A stretch of DNA of 29,179 bases from a virus: positions 1 through 29,179 of the IMG/VR virus record IMGVR_UViG_3300037843_000547, one strand, 5' to 3'. Below the pieces are notes generated by a model. That model had not been told where the DNA came from. It searched no databases and saw only the letters and a list, made by a program, of their open reading frames with translations. Each line of letters starts with the position of its first letter. The stretch's first letter is position 1. The translations under genes were made by a program, and so were the position numbers. Below, in pieces: positions 3,054 to 27,967 of the stretch.

Positions 3054-4751
3054 GTGGCAGACAGCATAGTCCAGATCGAACCCACCAAAAACCTCACAAC
3101 AGAGCGTTCGACCAACCTGCGCGACCATTTTCCGTTCGCCGAGGTGCGCGGCAACCAAGGCCCTACGCTCGACAAGCTGGCGAAGTGGAACCAGTCTTCT
3201 GAAAAATTCTTTATCCTAGAGGGCCCGACGGGCTTCGGCAAGTCGCCTGTTGACATCTGCGAGGCGTCTTATGCGAAGACAATGCCAAGCTACGGGCAGT
3301 ACCAACCGGGCGCGTATATCCTGACCCCGCAGAAGACCCTCGCCGAGCAGTACATGCGCGACTTCTCCTCGATGGGATTGGTCGAACTGAAGGGCCGCTC
3401 TAACTACCCGTGCAGTAAGTGGACTCAGATCACCGGGGAGCCGGTGGACTGCGAAGTGGGCGCGGCTCTCGACGAGTCGGAAGAAGAAAAGTGCGGCTGC
3501 TGCCCATATCGCATCGACAAAGACATCTTTATGTCGAAGCCCTTTGGCACGACGAATTTCGCGTACTACCTGAACGAGACGAACCACGCCGGGCAGTTGC
3601 AGAACCGCAACATGCTGATATTGGACGAGGGGCACAACACCGAAGACCAGATTCTTTCCCTGACCGACACGATCATCAAGCAAAGCCGCTGCGACGATTA
3701 CGGTGCTGGCAAATTGCCTGTCTTCGACTCTGGTGATAACGAGAAAGTCCTGATGTGGCTCGACAACACGTTCGTCCCCGCCGCGAACGCTCACTATAGC
3801 AAGCTGGCGAAGTCCTTCCGTGAAGCACGCGACGAGGATCGTGTCAAGATTCTGCGCAAGCAGAAGGCTTTGGAGAAGTTCCTTGTACGCATCAACATGT
3901 TCCGCAACTCCGCCGATCCCGGCGAATGGTTCGCATGGTCCGACGTGCAGGAATACAGGGGCAAGGTCACCGGAACGGGCGATCTGTACATCAAGCCGCT
4001 CACTGCCCGGCTCTTCGCCGACAGCATGCTTTTTTCGAAGGCGCAGAAGGTGCTGATCACTTCCGCGACTATCCTCGATTTCGAGACATTCATGCGTAAC
4101 CTCGGCATCGCCCGAGATGACGCGCAGATTCTCGCCGTCGATTCCGAGTTCCCTGTTGAGAACCGTCCGATCTTCTACCGCCCTTGCGGCAGCATGTCGT
4201 ACAACAACGGCCGCAAGAGCGACCACATCGACAGGACGCTGCCCCTGATGGCGGTCGAGATCGAGGCGCTGCTCACCCGCTACATCGCGAAGAAGGGCAT
4301 CATCCACACCAACAGCTATAAGGTGAACAGGTACATCGTGAATTATCTGATGAGCACGAGCCACGCCTTCCGCATCATCACGCACGATAACTCGAAGGGC
4401 GCACGCGAGGCGGCACAAGCACAGCATATGACTTCCAAGGAGCCGACTGTGCTTATCTCGCCTTCCATGACCGAGGGCCTGGACCTGAAAGACGACCTCA
4501 GCCGCTTCCAGATCGTCTGCAAGGTCCCGTATCCGGCGCTAGACCCCTACGTCCGCGCACGCATGAAGCGAGACCCTAGTTGGTATTCTTGGCAGACGGG
4601 GCTAAAGCTGGTGCAGGGCACGGGGCGCAGCATCCGTAGCAAGATCGACCGCGCTCACACCTACATCCTTGACTCCGATTTTGCCGATTTCATCCAGAGG
4701 AATAACCGCACGATGCCAAAATGGTGGGTAGATTCCATCATTTGGGGGTAG
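3054..4751 (+). CDS. XPD/DinG-type superfamily 2 DNA helicase with Fe-S-like cysteines
   Basis: 565 residues from GTG 3054, preferred over ATG 3000 because GGAGGG lies 3 bases upstream and the upstream codons overlap a promoter-like element. Walker A is GPTGFGKS (57-64). The Walker B/motif II is LDEGHN, with DEGH at 191-194 where DEAH is usual. Motif III-like TSATI and motif VI QGTGRSIR (521-528) are present. Between motifs Ia and II, Cys at about 120, 133, 147, 149 and 150 occupy the place of the 4Fe-4S cluster of XPD/DinG helicases. These unwind DNA 5' to 3' using ATP. In a phage it probably serves replication or recombination. Its last 14 bases overlap the convergent GIY-YIG gene. Confidence 0.88.
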   Translation: MADSIVQIEPTKNLTTERSTNLRDHFPFAEVRGNQGPTLDKLAKWNQSSEKFFILEGPTGFGKSPVDICEASYAKTMPSYGQYQPGAYILTPQKTLAEQYMRDFSSMGLVELKGRSNYPCSKWTQITGEPVDCEVGAALDESEEEKCGCCPYRIDKDIFMSKPFGTTNFAYYLNETNHAGQLQNRNMLILDEGHNTEDQILSLTDTIIKQSRCDDYGAGKLPVFDSGDNEKVLMWLDNTFVPAANAHYSKLAKSFREARDEDRVKILRKQKALEKFLVRINMFRNSADPGEWFAWSDVQEYRGKVTGTGDLYIKPLTARLFADSMLFSKAQKVLITSATILDFETFMRNLGIARDDAQILAVDSEFPVENRPIFYRPCGSMSYNNGRKSDHIDRTLPLMAVEIEALLTRYIAKKGIIHTNSYKVNRYIVNYLMSTSHAFRIITHDNSKGAREAAQAQHMTSKEPTVLISPSMTEGLDLKDDLSRFQIVCKVPYPALDPYVRARMKRDPSWYSWQTGLKLVQGTGRSIRSKIDRAHTYILDSDFADFIQRNNRTMPKWWVDSIIWG

Positions 4752-5331
4752 CTCGTCTACTCACAGATATTTTTCCTTTGTGAGCCGCAGACAGTACCCT
4801 ACCTTCTATGCTTTTGGAAAGACGGCGGCAAAACTCAGCTTTTGGGATAGCCTGTTTCCCGGCAGCTAATCGTATCTGAGCGGCGTGTTTTTGCTCAGGT
4901 GTCCATACCCGTCTTCGATTGGCCTCAGCAACGGATGTAGCAACTGCGGTTTTCCACTTGTTGCGAAGTGTTGAGTCTGTCTTGATGCGGCTGTGGAGCT
5001 TTTTTATGTTCTTGACGCTTCGCCGCTTCGTGATTTCTGGCTGAGCGTTGATCCAATCGAATCCTCCGTTACCGCCCTGCCGCAGATTGTAACAAAACAG
5101 GTCAGCCTTCGCCGCCTCAACTAGCTCAAACTCTTTGGCGAACGCCTCCGCACTCGTGTTGAAGATGAAGAGAACGTCTTTTTTGAAGTTAGCTCTACCG
5201 CGCTTGGCTACAGCCCGCATAAATAGCTTGCCAGACCCAAGGTACGAATCGTTGGGGTTGTTCGTTTTGTGAACGCCGATATAGTAGCGTCCGTTGGTGA
5301 AATCTGTTGTTTTGTAGACGGTATAAAGCAT
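4738..5331 (-). CDS. GIY-YIG homing endonuclease
   Basis: 197 residues on the minus strand, the only minus-strand gene supported here. The N-terminus reads YTVYKTT then YYIGVHKT, the GIY-YIG signature in its phage form, followed by a Glu-bearing helix (EFELVEAAKAD) and YNLRQGGNGGF, typical of free-standing phage enzymes. The C-terminal half is basic and probably binds DNA. The Shine-Dalgarno GAGGG (complement of 5336-5340) lies 4 bases before ATG 5331. It sits convergently after the helicase and overlaps its 3' end by 14 bases. Base composition is more AT-rich than its neighbours. Such genes spread by cutting alleles that lack them and being copied in by repair. Confidence 0.88.
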   Translation of the reverse strand: MLYTVYKTTDFTNGRYYIGVHKTNNPNDSYLGSGKLFMRAVAKRGRANFKKDVLFIFNTSAEAFAKEFELVEAAKADLFCYNLRQGGNGGFDWINAQPEITKRRSVKNIKKLHSRIKTDSTLRNKWKTAVATSVAEANRRRVWTPEQKHAAQIRLAAGKQAIPKAEFCRRLSKSIEGRVLSAAHKGKISVSRRATPK

Positions 5332-12081: not shown

Positions 12082-12159
12082 ACTGATGGGGCGTATTCGT
12101 TTTTTGAATTTACCAGTTATAGGAAAAAAACAGCTATCGAACCCCCTAACCAAGTGGTA

Positions 12160-12166
12160 GTATTAA
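12160..12166 (+). promoter_or_regulatory. GTATTA element before the envelope module
   Basis: TAGTATTAA lies in the 126-base gap after the exonuclease gene. GTG 12175 follows TATTAA by 8 bases and is in frame with the downstream gene. It may drive the two-gene envelope module and the microproteins after it. Confidence 0.55.
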
Positions 12167-12191
12167 GTCACAAGGTGCCCGTGACGCGGGT

Positions 12192-12197
12192 TATAAT
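12192..12197 (+). promoter_or_regulatory. Perfect TATAAT, possible second -10
   Basis: TATAAT stands 10 bases before ATG 12208. A start of transcription near 12204 would give an mRNA with only a few bases of leader. No -35 at a proper distance is visible, so it could be chance, but it lies between two usable start codons and would decide which form of the protein is made. Confidence 0.4.
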
Positions 12198-12207
12198 GCG
12201 GGGGAAT

Positions 12208-13689
12208 ATGTGGTTCAAAAAGTTGCTGCTTGCTGCTTTGGTACTTTTTCTTGCCGGGACGGCGTCCGCCCAATCCCAGCCGTCTCAGTCTGCCCAGTTG
12301 CCGTTCTTCTTTCCCAAGGGCTTCTACCAGACCTCGGACCCCCTCAAGCAAAGGGAGGAGTATGTCCGCTGGCTGAACAGCACGTGGAACTGCAACCAGG
12401 GCGGCGCTATGGGGGGGACGATCCCCGGCTCGGACAGCATCCGCATCAAGACCGACGTGGTCAGCACCGACAGCGTCACCGAGAACCCCGCCAAGATGAC
12501 AACGGTCTTCGACCACTACATCAAGCAGGCTGACGGAAGCGTCCGCTACACCGACATGTGCCACACCGAGATTCTCACGCCGGAGCAGTTTAAGGTGGTT
12601 TCCGACGGCTTGCAGAAGCAGGCCGTTGACGCGGCTCAACGCGATTACGATTTCTACGTCATCATCTACGACAAGAGCGTCGAAGCCCGCGCCGCCAAGC
12701 TGGGCGTGTCCAAGGCGGAGCTTACCAAGTCCCTCGACGAGAAGGTGCCCGGATACAACGTGACATGGCGCGAGGTTCACCGCATACCGAAGCCAATGCA
12801 CCCATCCGATTTCGTGCCCCGCGAGCTTCATCTCGGCTTCAACCCGCCGCTCGGGGGAATCCTCGGCGTCACGTGGCTCAACACCGGCGTCATCTACTAC
12901 AATCCCGACGCCTGGATCACCGACGCCCTCAACGGCATCCCGAAGGTCATGCAGCACGAGGAGGTCCACGGCAACATCAACCTCCAGAAGTGGCCTCTGT
13001 CGGAGGCGTTCGACGTCGAGCTTATCGCCAGCATCCCCGAGATGCTCTACAAGGAAAACCAGACCGATTTCCCGTCGCACGGTTACGCGAAGGACATCCG
13101 CGAACTTGCCCAGATTTACTACGGCATGGACTGGGCTGAGATGCAGAAGCAGATCGTGAAGTTCGACTTCGCGGGAAACATTGTCTACGACGACGAGAAG
13201 TACCTGTACTACTACAAGCAGATCGACCAGATCAAGGCGGAGATGCTGAAGTTCTTCGTCGATGTCACCATACCTGAGTTCGAGTCCGACCCGGTCTGGT
13301 GGAGCGCCATTAACGACATTCGCGGCGACAACAACACGGTGTTCCGCATCACCATGGCCGACCACTACCAGATTTGCTCCCTCGGCGGCTGCGACGCATC
13401 GACGGAGTGGCTGCAAACGCACAAGGACGAGATCATGGAGATCGCCCAGCGTGCGTTCCAGGCCGGGATGGGCAAGAACCGCAGCGGCGGGGACTTCGGC
13501 AGCGTTTCGCCGTGGATGGCCGAGCAGTACAACAAGATGTTCACCCCGGCCGAGCAGGAGAATATCGAGAGGTATTTCCGCCAGCACCCAGAGCAGCTTA
13601 AGAATCTGCGCACGATGACCCCTGCCGAGGCGGTGGTGTTCATGCAGCGCTTTAAGGTCAATTCGCTCGACAAGGCGGTGGTACAATGA
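12208..13689 (+). CDS. Exported HEEVH protein, putative zinc metallopeptidase-like
   Basis: 493 residues from ATG 12208. A signal peptide is clear: positive start (MWFKK), hydrophobic core (LLLAALVLFLAG) and an Ala-Ser-Ala cleavage site after residue 21. The mature protein contains HEEVH at 250-254, matching HExxH of gluzincin-type metallopeptidases. Glu266 and Glu271 in the following helix (SEAFDVELIA) could supply the third zinc ligand. Four Cys (WNC, DMC, CSLGGC) may form disulfides outside the cytoplasm. Overall family not recognised. GTG 12175 is an alternative start adding 11 residues. It overlaps the lipoprotein gene by 4 bases. An exported phage protein of this size could remodel the envelope or block superinfection. 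Activity is an inference from one short motif. Confidence 0.8.
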   Translation: MWFKKLLLAALVLFLAGTASAQSQPSQSAQLPFFFPKGFYQTSDPLKQREEYVRWLNSTWNCNQGGAMGGTIPGSDSIRIKTDVVSTDSVTENPAKMTTVFDHYIKQADGSVRYTDMCHTEILTPEQFKVVSDGLQKQAVDAAQRDYDFYVIIYDKSVEARAAKLGVSKAELTKSLDEKVPGYNVTWREVHRIPKPMHPSDFVPRELHLGFNPPLGGILGVTWLNTGVIYYNPDAWITDALNGIPKVMQHEEVHGNINLQKWPLSEAFDVELIASIPEMLYKENQTDFPSHGYAKDIRELAQIYYGMDWAEMQKQIVKFDFAGNIVYDDEKYLYYYKQIDQIKAEMLKFFVDVTIPEFESDPVWWSAINDIRGDNNTVFRITMADHYQICSLGGCDASTEWLQTHKDEIMEIAQRAFQAGMGKNRSGGDFGSVSPWMAEQYNKMFTPAEQENIERYFRQHPEQLKNLRTMTPAEAVVFMQRFKVNSLDKAVVQ

Positions 13690-15344
13690 AGATCGGCACA
13701 CTCGTAGCTACGCTCCTGCTTTCCGCGCTGCTAGTCGGCTGCACTCCCCCATATCGGGACACGTTCAACGACGAGGGCAAGAAACGCGGCTGGACGCAAA
13801 AGCAAACCGACGCCGCCTTCGCCTTCGCCGACCGAATCTTCTGGTCCCGCGAGACGGGTGCGAACAAGTACGTCATAGCCTACAGCAAAGTGCCTATTTC
13901 CAAGGTACGCGAGCAGCTTGAGGGCAGTTTGAAGGACCTGGATTCCGCGCTCGACCCGAAGAACGCCGAGTTCAAGCAGTACCTCGACACGTTCAACCTG
14001 CGGGAAGACGTGAAGCATGACGAAGAAATCGCGCAGGCCATCAACGACCGCCTGAACGTGGCCGACCTTCAGACCCAGTTCAAGCAGAAAATGGGCGACA
14101 TCCCCGAGTCCGGCCCGGAAGCGGAGATGGCGCAGGGCTACAATGTCCGCCGCCTCTACGTCAACAAGCCCCTCGTGGACGCGTTCCCCTTCAATTCCGA
14201 CGTGATCGACGCCGCGAAGAAGAACGGCACGCTCAAACAGGTCGCCGCGCTGACGATTGACGAGTCCGTTCAGTATGACCACAAGGACCCCAACCCCAAG
14301 AACCCGGAAGACACGAACGACTTTGTCTGGAAGGCACGCAACCAGAAGATCGTCCTGACCGAGTACAAGATCATCGACGTGGACAAGCCGCTCGACAACA
14401 AGGGCGATTACATCGAGGGTTACCGCGTTGTGGACGGCAAACAGGAACAATACCCGGCTATCAGGATATTCTTCCCGCCGTCCGGCAGCATGGCCCTTTT
14501 GTTGATCGACGCCGACGAGGAGGGCATGCCCGGCTTCGGGGTGCCCGACGTCATCCAGGAAATCTCTTCGACCACCAACCTGACCGACCTGATGCAGAAC
14601 ACGAGCCTGCTTAATAGCCTCTTTGACAAGAAGGAAGCCAGGAAGGACCGCGTGGTCAGCCCTGCCCAGCTATTCAAGGTCGAGATCGCGCCCCTCGGAG
14701 CGAAGGTCCCGGACGAATGGCAGGCGTCGCCGGACCCCAACGGTTGGATCGTCCCGTTCAAGTACGCGAACTCGCAGGGCGACAACTACAATGTCCGCCT
14801 GCGCTACAAAAGGGTGGTAATCGACCCGAAAAACCCGGAAGCTCACCCGCACAGCGAATACTTGGAGCTTGAGTACGTCGAGAAGGAATACACCAAGACC
14901 GGGGACAGGTACACGCCCTCCGCTGGTAGGGTGACCGAGTACTACCGCCCGAAGAAGGAATTCGCCGGAAAAGTGAAAGCCGATGTGCTTTATAGCGCCG
15001 ACACCAAGAAGGTACAGTTCGATTTCGAGGACGGCACCATCGTCGAGGGCTTCGTCACTCCGGGCAAGAACAAGTTCATCGAGGACACCCCGTACGCCAG
15101 GTCCTACAACGAGGGGCAGAAGCGCTGGTGGATTGAGTCGTCGAACAACGACGGCAAGTACGACAAGCGCAAATCAATCGGTCAGCCCAAGGAACAGACG
15201 GGACAGTACGGCGCGGCAGAGGAAGCAGAGAGCGGCGCATCTGGCACATCGCAGAACTCGGACAACGAGTACAACCGCAAGCCTGTTGTTCCTGAAGTTA
15301 AGACGATTCAGGACGTTGAAGGTTACCTTAACGAGCATCGTTAA
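13686..15344 (+). CDS. Large lipoprotein of unknown function
   Basis: 552 residues. The N-terminus MKIGTLVATLLLSALLVGC is a lipoprotein signal with lipobox LVGC (Cys19). The residue after the Cys is Thr, not Asp, which in enteric bacteria favours the outer membrane. The rest is rich in charged and aromatic residues, with strand-like segments in the middle (YPAIRIFFPPSGSMALLLID; DNYNVRLRYKRVVID) and a Gly-Ser-Glu-rich linker near 500-525. No family recognised. The ATGA overlap with the HEEVH gene implies equal production and a shared task in the envelope. A lipoprotein of this size is unusual for a phage. Confidence 0.82.
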   Translation: MKIGTLVATLLLSALLVGCTPPYRDTFNDEGKKRGWTQKQTDAAFAFADRIFWSRETGANKYVIAYSKVPISKVREQLEGSLKDLDSALDPKNAEFKQYLDTFNLREDVKHDEEIAQAINDRLNVADLQTQFKQKMGDIPESGPEAEMAQGYNVRRLYVNKPLVDAFPFNSDVIDAAKKNGTLKQVAALTIDESVQYDHKDPNPKNPEDTNDFVWKARNQKIVLTEYKIIDVDKPLDNKGDYIEGYRVVDGKQEQYPAIRIFFPPSGSMALLLIDADEEGMPGFGVPDVIQEISSTTNLTDLMQNTSLLNSLFDKKEARKDRVVSPAQLFKVEIAPLGAKVPDEWQASPDPNGWIVPFKYANSQGDNYNVRLRYKRVVIDPKNPEAHPHSEYLELEYVEKEYTKTGDRYTPSAGRVTEYYRPKKEFAGKVKADVLYSADTKKVQFDFEDGTIVEGFVTPGKNKFIEDTPYARSYNEGQKRWWIESSNNDGKYDKRKSIGQPKEQTGQYGAAEEAESGASGTSQNSDNEYNRKPVVPEVKTIQDVEGYLNEHR

Positions 15345-15383
15345 GACTTCCTGCCCCATGAGCATAGGAGCCGTGGAACAGGC

Positions 15384-15542
15384 ATGACACCGATACTTCT
15401 GTACACCCTCATCGCAGCCGGGCTAGGCTGGTCAATTCATAAGAAAATGTGGGGCATCGCCGTGTTCTGCGGAGCTATGCTCGTGTGGATGCTTGTCATG
15501 CAACTGATCATCGCTATCTCCATGCACCCTATTAGTTTCTAG
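15384..15542 (+). CDS. Small two-pass membrane protein (52 aa)
   Basis: Two hydrophobic stretches (ILLYTLIAAGLGW and GIAVFCGAMLVWMLVMQLII) are separated by a short basic loop (SIHKKMW). The gene lies 39 bases after the lipoprotein gene. A 9-codon frame (15358-15387) ends on its start in an ATGA junction and may couple translation; a Shine-Dalgarno AGGAG belongs to that region. Holin-like size and shape, but no family can be fixed. Confidence 0.55.
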   Translation: MTPILLYTLIAAGLGWSIHKKMWGIAVFCGAMLVWMLVMQLIIAISMHPISF

Positions 15543-15599
15543 CCCAAGATTTTTTCAGCCAACAGCACCCCCCGACCCCAATATAAGCATAGAGGCTTT

Positions 15600-15761
15600 A
15601 TGCTTAGAAGACTACTGATACGGGTAGGGTTGCTTGCCTTCCTACCTATTCTTATGCTGATTTGCCTACTACTCAAGCCGTGGTGGGCTTATGGGAACAC
15701 CAGTCTGCGGGACAACTTCATTTGGTGGCTGTGCTGTTTTCTGGAAGGCGATATGAGCTAG
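15600..15761 (+). CDS. Small membrane protein (53 aa)
   Basis: ATG 15600 has a Shine-Dalgarno AGAGG 4 bases upstream (15591-15595). The product begins with a basic patch (MLRRLLIR), then a hydrophobic helix (GLLAFLPILMLICLLL), then a Trp-rich segment (KPWWAYG; IWWLCCFLEG). It ends 17 bases before the RuvC-like gene, whose promoter-like element lies just after this stop. Possibly an envelope microprotein working with the upstream exported pair. No family recognised. Confidence 0.6.
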   Translation: MLRRLLIRVGLLAFLPILMLICLLLKPWWAYGNTSLRDNFIWWLCCFLEGDMS

Positions 15762-15766
15762 CCGTC

Positions 15767-15773
15767 GTATTAA
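15767..15773 (+). promoter_or_regulatory. GTATTA element directly before RuvC-like gene
   Basis: GTATTAA; TATTAA as -10 ends 5 bases before ATG 15779. The gap (GTAGC) has no Shine-Dalgarno. This is one of the clearest leaderless arrangements in the window and would start the recombination unit. Confidence 0.62.
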
Positions 15774-15778
15774 GTAGC

Positions 15779-19645: not shown

Positions 19646-19937
19646 AGTCACGCAGGACAACATGAAGGAGATGCAAGGCCGGGTCAAGAAGCTCCAGGGC
19701 ACCCGCGACGAGATCATCGGAACTTTCAAGGTTCAGGAGTCGAAAAGGGACGAAGCTTATGTTAAGCTAAGGGAGCTAGGGATTGAGAACCCGGAGAAGA
19801 TGACTTCCAAGGAGCTTCAAGCCTTGGCCGACCAGAAGCGGGCCGAGCTTGCGGAAAAAATCGCTTCCCTGAACGAGCAGCTTGCGCAGGGCGAAAAATT
19901 GATCGAGCAATACAGAGAGCTACAACAGGAAAACTGA
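19638..19937 (+). CDS. Coiled-coil protein coupled to half-Rad50 (99 aa)
   Basis: ATG 19638 overlaps the half-Rad50 gene by 8 bases. Nearly the whole protein is charged helix of coiled-coil type (VKKLQGTRDEIIGTFKVQ; LADQKRAELAEKIASLNEQL), broken by one turn (LGIENPEKMTSK). No Walker B or signature motif is present, so it is not the missing Rad50 lobe. Overlap and helical nature suggest a partner or spacer of the Rad50-like coiled coil. Confidence 0.7.
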   Translation: MTEVTQDNMKEMQGRVKKLQGTRDEIIGTFKVQESKRDEAYVKLRELGIENPEKMTSKELQALADQKRAELAEKIASLNEQLAQGEKLIEQYRELQQEN

Positions 19938-20221
19938 TGGAAACGTGCAGCGTCACGAACTGCGACAATCCGGGCACACAGCGGTTCCTTGTGAAGGAGA
20001 TGCCGGAGAACGGACTGGTTGTCGGCACAGCCATCACCGTGATAGTTCTTGACGAGAATGGAGTGGAGTCGGGTGAAGTGACATTTTGTACTCCGGGGAG
20101 TCCCACTCCATTGTGCGCGGAGCACTATGACCTCGTTGTAGGGATTTGCCGTCGCGCCTCGGAGAAGTCCGACGATCCGGGCAGCGAAACATTTCGCGAG
20201 ATTACTAAGCTAAACAGCTAA
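19937..20221 (+). CDS. Cys/His mini-protein with CAEHYD motif (94 aa)
   Basis: TGATG junction with the coiled-coil gene. N-terminal Cys pair (METCSVTNCDNPG) and a C-terminal LCAEHYD give a CxxxxC...CxxH set, a likely zinc site. The same (W/L)-x-C-A-E-H-Y-D block appears in three tandem genes at 27.4-27.97 kb. Between the two halves is a strand-rich insert (VVGTAITVIVLDENGVESGE). Function unknown; members of such families are often small nucleic-acid or protein binders. Confidence 0.7.
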   Translation: METCSVTNCDNPGTQRFLVKEMPENGLVVGTAITVIVLDENGVESGEVTFCTPGSPTPLCAEHYDLVVGICRRASEKSDDPGSETFREITKLNS

Positions 20222-22717: not shown

Positions 22718-23374
22718 ATGTTCATTTACCTCGTGTACAACACGATTGACGGGAAAGTTTACGTCGGAAAACACGCTGGCATCAGTGTTCAACGACGCTG
22801 GCGAAAGCATGTAGCAGATGCTAGACGGGGCGTTAAAACATATTTTTACAATGCCATTCGTAAGTACGGAGAGAATGTTTTTCAGGTGTTTACTTTGTCT
22901 TCTTGGGCCTCATCAAAAGAGGATTTGAACGCCCAAGAAGTGCATTTTATTGCTAAATACCGAGCCAACGATCCAGTATACGGGTACAACATGACCTCAG
23001 GCGGGGACGGAGGGGGCATGTTCAAGGGCAGGAAACATACCACGCAATCAAAACAAAAAATAGCGGAAGCTCGAACAGGTAAGCCAAGCCCCAGAAAAGG
23101 ACAACACCACACGGCGGAAGCAAAGAGGAAAATTAGCCAAGCAGCCTTAGGCAATAAACGCTGTCTCGGCAGAAAGTTGTCCGAGGCGACAAAGCGGAAA
23201 ATATCGGAAGCCACGATAGGCAGAATTGCCTCGGACGAACTATGCAGGGTACGTTCGGAAAACGCCAAGGGAGACAAAAATCCCATGTATGGTCGCAAGC
23301 GGGTGTATACTCAAGTTACTTTAGAAAAGATGCGCCAAGCGCAGCAACGACGGCGAGCTAGGGAACGTGGATGA
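22718..23374 (+). CDS. GIY-YIG homing endonuclease with NUMOD3 repeats
   Basis: 218 residues. N-terminus IYLVYNTIDGKVYVGKH is the GIY-YIG core, with conserved Arg in RRWRKHVAD and Glu in QEVHFIAKY, then YNMTSGGDGG. Three basic repeats (GRKHTTQSKQKIAEAR, GQHHTAEAKRKISQA, GRKLSEATKRKISEAT) are NUMOD3-type DNA-binding modules. It starts 2 bases after the Mre11-like stop and ends in ATGA with the next frame. It is visibly more AT-rich than the flanks, which points to a later arrival as a mobile gene. Confidence 0.9.
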   Translation: MFIYLVYNTIDGKVYVGKHAGISVQRRWRKHVADARRGVKTYFYNAIRKYGENVFQVFTLSSWASSKEDLNAQEVHFIAKYRANDPVYGYNMTSGGDGGGMFKGRKHTTQSKQKIAEARTGKPSPRKGQHHTAEAKRKISQAALGNKRCLGRKLSEATKRKISEATIGRIASDELCRVRSENAKGDKNPMYGRKRVYTQVTLEKMRQAQQRRRARERG

Positions 23375-26433: not shown

Positions 26434-27407
26434 GCGAGATGTACATTGCGGCGGCCCAGCACCTAGCCGCCAGGATCGACGCGATGTTCACGTCCGAGAA
26501 AACGCTGGAGGACGCGTTCAAACTTCTCTATCCCGGCCTGCCCTTCGACCGCACCGATCACTGGGCGCACGTCTTTGAGACCTTGCTCAACGAGGCCTGG
26601 GACGCCAAGGGCCCGGTCGTCAAGGGTAATCCGACCTCTATGGATCGCCTACACATCATCCGGGCACTTCACCCGCTGCTCGACTACAACCTCTTCACGC
26701 AGGCGCTTCTCAACCTCCAGGGCTACACGGGCATGTTCTACTTGACCGGGGACGCGGAGAAGGAGATCGAGCGCATGAGAGAGAATTGGAAGGCGAAGCA
26801 GTGGAAGTCCGACCCGTTCGCCCCGAAGGTGAGGATGGTCAAGCAGGCCGAGGCGGTCACGGAGGAGCAAAGGGAGTTCAACAATGTCCTCTCCACGCTG
26901 AGGGCGCTCCGCATCATCACGCAGTTCACCCCGCAGATCAGCTTCCGCGTGTCGCCCAAGGGCAGCACCCCGGCGTTCGCCGATTCCCGCAACATCAGCA
27001 TGATCGGCATGGGCGGCGACAAATACTTGCGCACAATCCCCGCGCTGACACCGTTCTACGTCACATGGGACCAGGTGCCGCAGATGGCCGTGTCGTGCGG
27101 TACCCAAATGAACGGGGTATACGCCGTGGACGGAAAGCCGGGCGTCGTGTTCAAGGCCGATGGCATCCCATACGAGTTCGTCTCCAAATCTGGAGGAGAA
27201 ATCCTCCAAGACGTCCTGTTCGCCCGCAGGCTGATGTACGAGATATTCGGCGGCGTGGACACGACCAAGGAAACGTGCATCATGTTGCCGCGCATGAACT
27301 CCCTGCTCGTGGTAACCGACGCGGGCGGCGCGAGCCTTCTTGACGCTTTCGCGCTGCTGCGGGCCAAGTACCCCATGGTACAATTGACCGAGGGTGTCCG
27401 TGTCTAG
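26430..27407 (+). CDS. Hypothetical protein (325 aa)
   Basis: Start in an ATGA overlap. The first 130 residues are helical; from about 165 on, strand-rich segments appear (QISFRVSPKGS, FYVTWDQVPQMAV, GVVFKADGIPYEFV), ending in a helical part. No motif of a known enzyme is seen. The stop overlaps the next gene by 8 bases. Lies in the accessory region before the Cys/His paralogues. Function unknown. Confidence 0.75.
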   Translation: MSEMYIAAAQHLAARIDAMFTSEKTLEDAFKLLYPGLPFDRTDHWAHVFETLLNEAWDAKGPVVKGNPTSMDRLHIIRALHPLLDYNLFTQALLNLQGYTGMFYLTGDAEKEIERMRENWKAKQWKSDPFAPKVRMVKQAEAVTEEQREFNNVLSTLRALRIITQFTPQISFRVSPKGSTPAFADSRNISMIGMGGDKYLRTIPALTPFYVTWDQVPQMAVSCGTQMNGVYAVDGKPGVVFKADGIPYEFVSKSGGEILQDVLFARRLMYEIFGGVDTTKETCIMLPRMNSLLVVTDAGGASLLDAFALLRAKYPMVQLTEGVRV

Positions 27408-27588
27408 GCTTTGCGAGTTCGACTTCTCGGACGGGGCGGAGTGTGCTGAGACCGCCGTGGCGAACATAGCCGAGCATTGGTACTGCGCCGAGCATTATGA
27501 TGTGTGGATGGCGTACTACCGCAGGAGCTTCGCCACCAACGGTGAAAAGTTCGACGAGCGGATGTTTAGAGAAGCGTGGGAGAAGTAA
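27400..27588 (+). CDS. WYCAEHYD-family Cys/His mini-protein, copy A (62 aa)
   Basis: GTG 27400 is used since AGGG (27391-27394) lies 5 bases upstream; GTG 27394 would overlap it. Cys5, Cys15, Cys29 and His32 form a plausible zinc site: CEFDFSDGAEC then HWYCAEHYD. The C-terminus is a charged helix. It is the first of three tandem copies. Confidence 0.72.
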   Translation: MSRLCEFDFSDGAECAETAVANIAEHWYCAEHYDVWMAYYRRSFATNGEKFDERMFREAWEK

Positions 27589-27794
27589 TGGCTAGCCACA
27601 CTTGCGACTGGTGGGTGCTAGAAGAGTATGATGACCATGACCAGGAAGTCCCTTGCGGCAAGCCAGCCGTGGCGCACATAGACTGGGGCGACGGGGTGAT
27701 TTACTGGTACTGCGCCGAACACTACGATATGCGCATCTCATACATCAAGGAGTGCGGCCGGCGGGACGTGCTGGAAGCGAGCGGCGTGAGATGA
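27588..27794 (+). CDS. WYCAEHYD-family Cys/His mini-protein, copy B (68 aa)
   Basis: TAATG overlap with copy A; GGAG (27579-27582) is 5 bases upstream. Cys6, Cys23, Cys42 and His45: TCDWW, VPCGKPAVAHIDWGDG, YWYCAEHYD. The middle IDWGDG is shared with copy C (IDWPDGDG), placing these two closer to each other than to copy A. Confidence 0.74.
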   Translation: MASHTCDWWVLEEYDDHDQEVPCGKPAVAHIDWGDGVIYWYCAEHYDMRISYIKECGRRDVLEASGVR

Positions 27795-27967
27795 AGCAGT
27801 GCAGGTGGAATGGCGTTGGCCGTTGCGACAAGCCGGGCGTCTGCTCCATCGACTGGCCCGATGGCGACGGAAATACTAAGTGGTACTGCGCCGAGCACTA
27901 CGACCGCCTAATCGCCGCTCTGAAAGAGTCCGGGCGGATAGCCTTGCTGAAGGGAAAGCATGCCTAA
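27791..27967 (+). CDS. WYCAEHYD-family Cys/His mini-protein, copy C (58 aa)
   Basis: ATGA overlap with copy B. Cys4, Cys12, Cys18, Cys33 and His36: QCRWNGVGRCDKPGVC, IDWPDGDG, KWYCAEHYD. The basic end (LLKGKHA) overlaps the exonuclease start by 8 bases. The family may be expanding by tandem duplication. Confidence 0.74.
   Translation: MKQCRWNGVGRCDKPGVCSIDWPDGDGNTKWYCAEHYDRLIAALKESGRIALLKGKHA

Follow-up and report, generated by a model that had tools for sequence, protein, structure and literature searches.

The stretch of DNA analysed here, called the window below, is an IMG/VR virus record of 29,179 bases. It contains a pair of overlapping genes, A and B, which lie in a replication and recombination setting, as the original prediction had it: a DNA polymerase exonuclease subunit, a RuvC-like resolvase, a UvsX-like recombinase, a DNA helicase and SbcCD-like proteins are encoded around them. 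The features referred to in the following are:

12082..15778, + strand: stretch from the exonuclease gene to the ruvC-like gene, a variable cargo site that in relatives is empty or holds the pair, a trypsin-like protease or both
12208..13689, + strand: gene A, 493 aa, putative exported zinc metallopeptidase with HEEVH and an invariant Glu271 (ORF, translation, 12-sequence alignment)
12955..12969, + strand: HEEVH codons, residues 250-254 of A (from the translation)
13018..13020, + strand: Glu271 codon of A, an invariant residue and candidate for the third metal ligand (alignment)
13686..13689, + strand: ATGA overlap of the stop of A and the start of B, 4 nt in 16/17 pairs and 7 nt in YS40_Isch
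13686..15344, + strand: gene B, 552 aa lipoprotein with lipobox LVGC (Cys19) (ORF, translation, alignment)
15384..15542, + strand: membrane microprotein of 52 aa, a neighbour outside the pair, also present in the contig L036 without A and B
15600-15761: second membrane ORF, found in the window only

Gene A had been described as encoding a signal-peptide protein of 493 residues with an HEEVH motif, and translation of the ORF bears out both the coordinates and the motif. The N-terminus (MWFKKLLLAALVLFLAGTASAQ) is signal peptide-like. Taken alone, an HExxH motif is weak evidence for a peptidase, and one arises by chance in 1.4% of shuffles of A. The motif is nevertheless meaningful here, since it is invariant in 12 homologues with 21-78% identity to the protein of the window. 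The alignment of these diverse sequences contains 26 invariant columns, including H250, E251, H254, D269, E271, H291 and Y293. Residues 250-293 hold seven of the 26, where 2.3 would be expected (p = 0.005). The density is also high upstream of HEEVH, with 18 of the 26 columns falling within residues 194-293, and conservation of A is therefore not limited to a metal site.

Either Glu266 or Glu271 had been suggested as third ligand, and glutamate does occur at both positions in the window. Only Glu271 is invariant whereas Glu266 varies among the homologues, and we therefore keep the former and drop the latter. Glu271 sits 17 residues past the second histidine, which gives the spacing HExxH-x16-E. 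At the level of the motif, A thus shows the gluzincin-type combination of HExxH with a conserved downstream glutamate, H250, E251, H254 and E271 being invariant in all 12 sequences. A metzincin, in contrast, can be rejected: the HEXXHXXGXXH/D motif is absent from the window, which reads HEEVHGNINLQ with Ile for Gly and Gln for His/Asp, and no A homologue of the alignment restores it.

Gene B was likewise found as predicted, a lipoprotein of 552 residues with LVGC in the context SALLVGC. It has the signal peptide ending in a lipobox cysteine by which bacterial lipoproteins are defined, and Cys19 is invariant; the lipoboxes of its homologues read LSGC, FTGC, SSGC, LTGC, LAGC and similar. Invariant positions of the alignment further include D275-x-D277 and G283-F-G-x-P287, that is, a D-x-D followed by G-F/Y-G-x-P. 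B proteins of the Thermus-phage type carry a C-terminal D-x-DGDG-x-FD, which by its appearance looks like a calcium-binding loop. The AlphaFold2 models, each built with 11 homologues as input, were too poor to use for either protein (mean pLDDT 43 for A, with about 24-28 around the motif, and 47 for B).

The suggested coupling of the two genes turned out to be genuine. A and B stand next to each other in identical order in 17/17 loci, and the 4-base overlap is present in the window as ATGA and conserved in 16 of these loci. The export signals, a signal peptide-like N-terminus in A and the lipobox in B, are retained in phages and in Patescibacteria alike. The trees of A and B concur on the main splits, in which the window joins L002 and L003, the remaining phage contigs form a group, L015 lies outside and the Patescibacteria are farther out; the branching of the Patescibacteria is weakly supported and the branch of YS40_Isch is too long for a firm placement. 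The pair is under purifying selection, with dN/dS values of 0.07-0.22 for A and 0.07-0.36 for B by the simple NG86 estimate, for which dS is often near saturation. Taken together, the pair appears to be obligate.

Neither gene is a recognised structural or lysis protein, as had been claimed, and no such family was matched. The missing family match, the export signals and the chromosomal copies described below all argue against an identity of this kind. There was no significant match for A or B of the window in Pfam or PHROGs, and PADLOC assigned neither these two nor the proteins of YS40_Isch to known anti-phage defence proteins. Scanning the homologues member by member against Pfam and NCBIfam gave only weak, scattered matches. 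DUF6078, IATP, MHB, ZntR and others were discarded, as they mostly concerned one member and had E-values far too high or scores under the curated cut-offs. The family profiles had no meaningful match among PDB chains either, PspA and kalirin (E about 2) being chance hits, and A had no significant match to a described peptidase family in Pfam, NCBIfam, PHROG or PDB. By these comparisons, A and B are two families new to the searched databases. The arrangement itself is already known in kind, both as phage accessory exported proteins and as a protease with a lipoprotein.

Of the checks that had been proposed, the search for the pair in other phages was successful. The collections were scanned with short degenerate patterns, which distant relatives may escape. 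Scans of viral contigs yielded the pair in 11 further IMG/VR contigs, two of which measure 463 and 456 kb and carry terminase-like genes. In G005, the 170-kb contig of L002, a terminase-like match at 116462-117013 runs through one TGA codon. By tblastn, a single annotated phage, the Thermus phage YS40_Isch, possesses an A homologue (E 6e-16), and the lipoprotein encoded by its next gene is homologous to B (hhalign probability 98.4, E 8e-15, 409 columns). Both are annotated merely as hypothetical proteins. They resemble the pair of L067, with 53% and 37% identity, near which a ferritin-like ORF, unusual for a phage, was noticed by eye (L067:2288-2809). A Rhizobium phage LG08 hit (E 0.6) and a gut phage record (E 0.2) were dismissed as chance, and plasmids gave no homologue of A or B.

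Among 84,980 prokaryote species, each represented by one genome, the only hits were four Patescibacteria contigs from Harrisonbacteria or Paceibacter MAGs, and A and B occurred together each time. Carriage is rare even there: 1/380 across a sample of the phylum, 4/244 in the order and 3/17 in the family. In L029 and L030 the pair lies between pilB and yebC-ruvC, with ruvB, PBP and dnaN close by. These surrounding genes and the length of the L030 contig (608 kb) indicate that both pairs are chromosomal; together with the dnaA, dnaN, polA and ruvB-like genes on L029, that length also speaks against contamination during binning. A chromosomal location is less certain for L031, a 5-kb contig with a gap. 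Within the accessible papers, to which most subscription journals do not belong, nothing was found on the pair, either for jumbo phages or for Patescibacteria, and the YS40_Isch paper is silent on it where it deals with this phage (PMC6452258).

When phages with a common replication module are compared, the stretch from the exonuclease gene to the ruvC-like gene proves to be variable. It holds the pair in the window and in L002/L047, L010/L040, L011/L041, L012/L039, L013/L045, L014/L038, L018/L037 and L024/L042, whereas L043, L044 and L046, the first two of which may be one phage, have nothing at this place. In L036 the pair is absent and an exported Trypsin_2 protein takes its place (L036:5985-6716), while L003 carries such a trypsin-like serine protease beside the pair (L003:11675-12433). 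Because an unrelated exported protease occurs at this site once instead of the pair and once alongside it, extracytoplasmic proteolysis is suggested to be what the site carries, and the site would be an apparent reservoir of exported proteases.

The pair is not bound to this location. In L015 it lies elsewhere, directly followed by a SprT-like ORF with an HExxH of its own (HEMAH; L015:9008-9346, E 3e-5, just below the cut-off). In YS40_Isch it is preceded by a dNMP kinase gene and followed by a terminator-like repeat and tRNA-Thr, a site that is bare in YS40 and TMA. Within the Patescibacteria family, 11 genomes have the divergent pilB/yebC junction without the pair. Since both occupied and empty sites are thus seen in three settings (exo/ruvC of phages, YS40_Isch versus YS40/TMA, and pilB/yebC), we regard the pair as a mobile two-gene cassette, the contrasts fitting either gain or loss.

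Several other ORFs deserve mention. Two ORFs of the window (4738-5331 on the minus strand and 22718-23374 on the plus strand) read like GIY-YIG homing endonucleases, and similar GIY-YIG-like and HNH-type ORFs beside the cargo site of relatives might aid movement of the cassette. Some relatives encode an extra exported protein just before an IHF/HU-like gene (L024:1147-1797, L018:740-1390, L004:4471-5241, also L003 and L046), which is missing from the window and has a weak match to the outer-membrane beta-barrel family OMP_b-brl (E 3e-4, below the cut-off). Three small tandem ORFs at 27394-27967 of the window have a WYCAEHYD-like motif in common, and CAEHYD recurs in another ORF at 19937-20221; they resemble small paralogous metal-binding proteins.

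Two details of the expected neighbourhood changed on closer inspection. Two membrane microproteins do follow B, but their membership of the pair is not supported: the first has 59% identity to an ORF in L036, and since L036 has it without A and B (it is also present in L002), it is a neighbour only. The promoter-like element attributed to the pair was not recovered, as a scan for promoters of the sigma-70 type found no site before A against 1.3 expected by chance. A role as phage promoter element was considered, and rejected, for a GTATTAAGT that is repeated near 12160 and 15767; four near matches were reached in 8/100 shuffles.

Phages have few exported proteins with roles other than lysis or structure, and these are poorly understood. 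We propose, with a probability of about 0.5, that A is an envelope-acting metallopeptidase and B its lipoprotein partner, that they work as one unit, and that the likeliest benefit is the exclusion of competitor phages via the host surface. A would be exported by its signal peptide and most likely is a zinc metallopeptidase of the HExxH...E type. The invariant residues suggest that the metal is bound by His250, His254 and Glu271 and that Glu251 is the catalytic base. B would be exported, lipidated on Cys19 and held at the membrane, and export together with lipidation would place both proteins outside the cytoplasm. The strict pairing and the conserved overlap argue that they act jointly, and with the agreeing trees they are consistent with B anchoring, regulating or being cut by A. 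Judged by its position, the pair would be expressed with the phage replication genes, and the gene order points to action probably before lysis. Gain and loss as a cassette mark it as optional. Because the secreted protein and its membrane-anchored partner travel together in large phages, in one Thermus phage and in some Patescibacteria, we infer that it is probably a tool for changing the host cell surface. Rival phages might then be kept out by superinfection exclusion or by shedding of their receptor, and in the Patescibacteria the same activity could benefit the cell. Against this proposal stand the lack of any family, fold or PDB match to a peptidase, the many invariant residues of A upstream of its motif and the far smaller size of known exclusion lipoproteins such as Llp.

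Among the alternatives, an aid to lysis is the strongest, and we still consider it unlikely. A would cut or activate B, the wall would become more sensitive to lysins and virions would be released better. There is a precedent in Mtz-Tim, a secreted HExxH protease and a lipoprotein of phage origin that sensitise cells to phage lysins (PMC8235301), and gene order and export signals match. However, the pair lies among replication genes and not among lysis genes, no holin or lysin is seen beside any copy, A is without the metzincin motif, and Patescibacteria chromosomes keep the pair without adjoining phage genes.

The chromosomal copies would fit a protease that serves the host by degrading external protein or peptides, be it food or antimicrobial peptides, with B tethering A to the cell, and so would the unrelated protease that is exported from the exo/ruvC site of phages. 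Given the rarity of carriage in the phylum sample and the family, and a gain for a lytic phage that is not evident, we find this improbable. Somewhat more doubtful still is a non-enzymatic A, with a fortuitous HExxH or lost metal binding, in a structural envelope or adhesin complex. The missing peptidase family match and confident fold would suit it, as would the dense invariant residues upstream of HEEVH, but the invariance of H250, E251, H254 and E271 down to 21% identity in phages and bacteria is unexpected for a fortuitous motif. A toxin-like secreted protease directed against other cells, with B as membrane-anchored protection of the producer, is the least credible: strict pairing, overlap and mobility would fit, yet B is conserved over its whole length in a pattern like that of A, exceeds typical immunity proteins in size, and neither a toxin domain nor a secretion apparatus turned up next to the two genes.

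Beyond the envelope-acting pair proposed above, one might see an undescribed and ancient two-gene envelope module, made of a new metallopeptidase family and an obligate lipoprotein, for which jumbo phages, Thermus phages and Patescibacteria chromosomes exchange the cassette; it would exclude rival phages when carried by a phage and defend the very small bacteria against phages. We hold this wider version to be unlikely. What makes the pair of interest is that two families without a database model, apparently obligate partners, occur in very large phages, in bacteria of candidate phyla and in a Thermus phage that can be cultured.

The closest precedent by motif and gene arrangement is Mtz-Tim of Listeria monocytogenes, a pair of phage origin whose lysin sensitisation depends on cleavage of the lipoprotein (PMC8235301). 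There, too, a gene for a secreted HExxH metalloprotease is immediately followed by one for a lipoprotein, the two occur as a pair and are linked to phages and mobile elements, and they act on the envelope. Mtz, however, belongs to the metzincins, with HEXXHXXGXXH/D and a Met-turn, in contrast to the HExxH-x16-E of A, the hosts are Gram-positive, and Tim is TIMP-like by structure prediction (PMC8235301). We treat Mtz-Tim as an analogue and working model.

That superinfection exclusion or receptor shedding would be the likeliest benefit is proposed from an analogy to lipoproteins of phages, among them Llp of phage T5, an exclusion lipoprotein in the host envelope that jams FhuA (PMC9586334). Llp and Cor are small single proteins (PMC9586334), whereas B has 552 residues and an HExxH partner. 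B matched no described sequence family, the Llp/Cor type included, and the likeness is at most functional.

True homologues of A and B are AZU97695 and AZU97696 of YS40_Isch (MK257744), which are adjacent and overlapping and possess HEMMH and a lipobox. They differ by an identity of only about 22%, a shorter B and another genomic site (dNMP kinase/tRNA-Thr). YS40_Isch with the pair and YS40 and TMA without it infect Thermus thermophilus and have about 87% DNA identity over the shared part, and this natural contrast makes the function of the pair directly testable.
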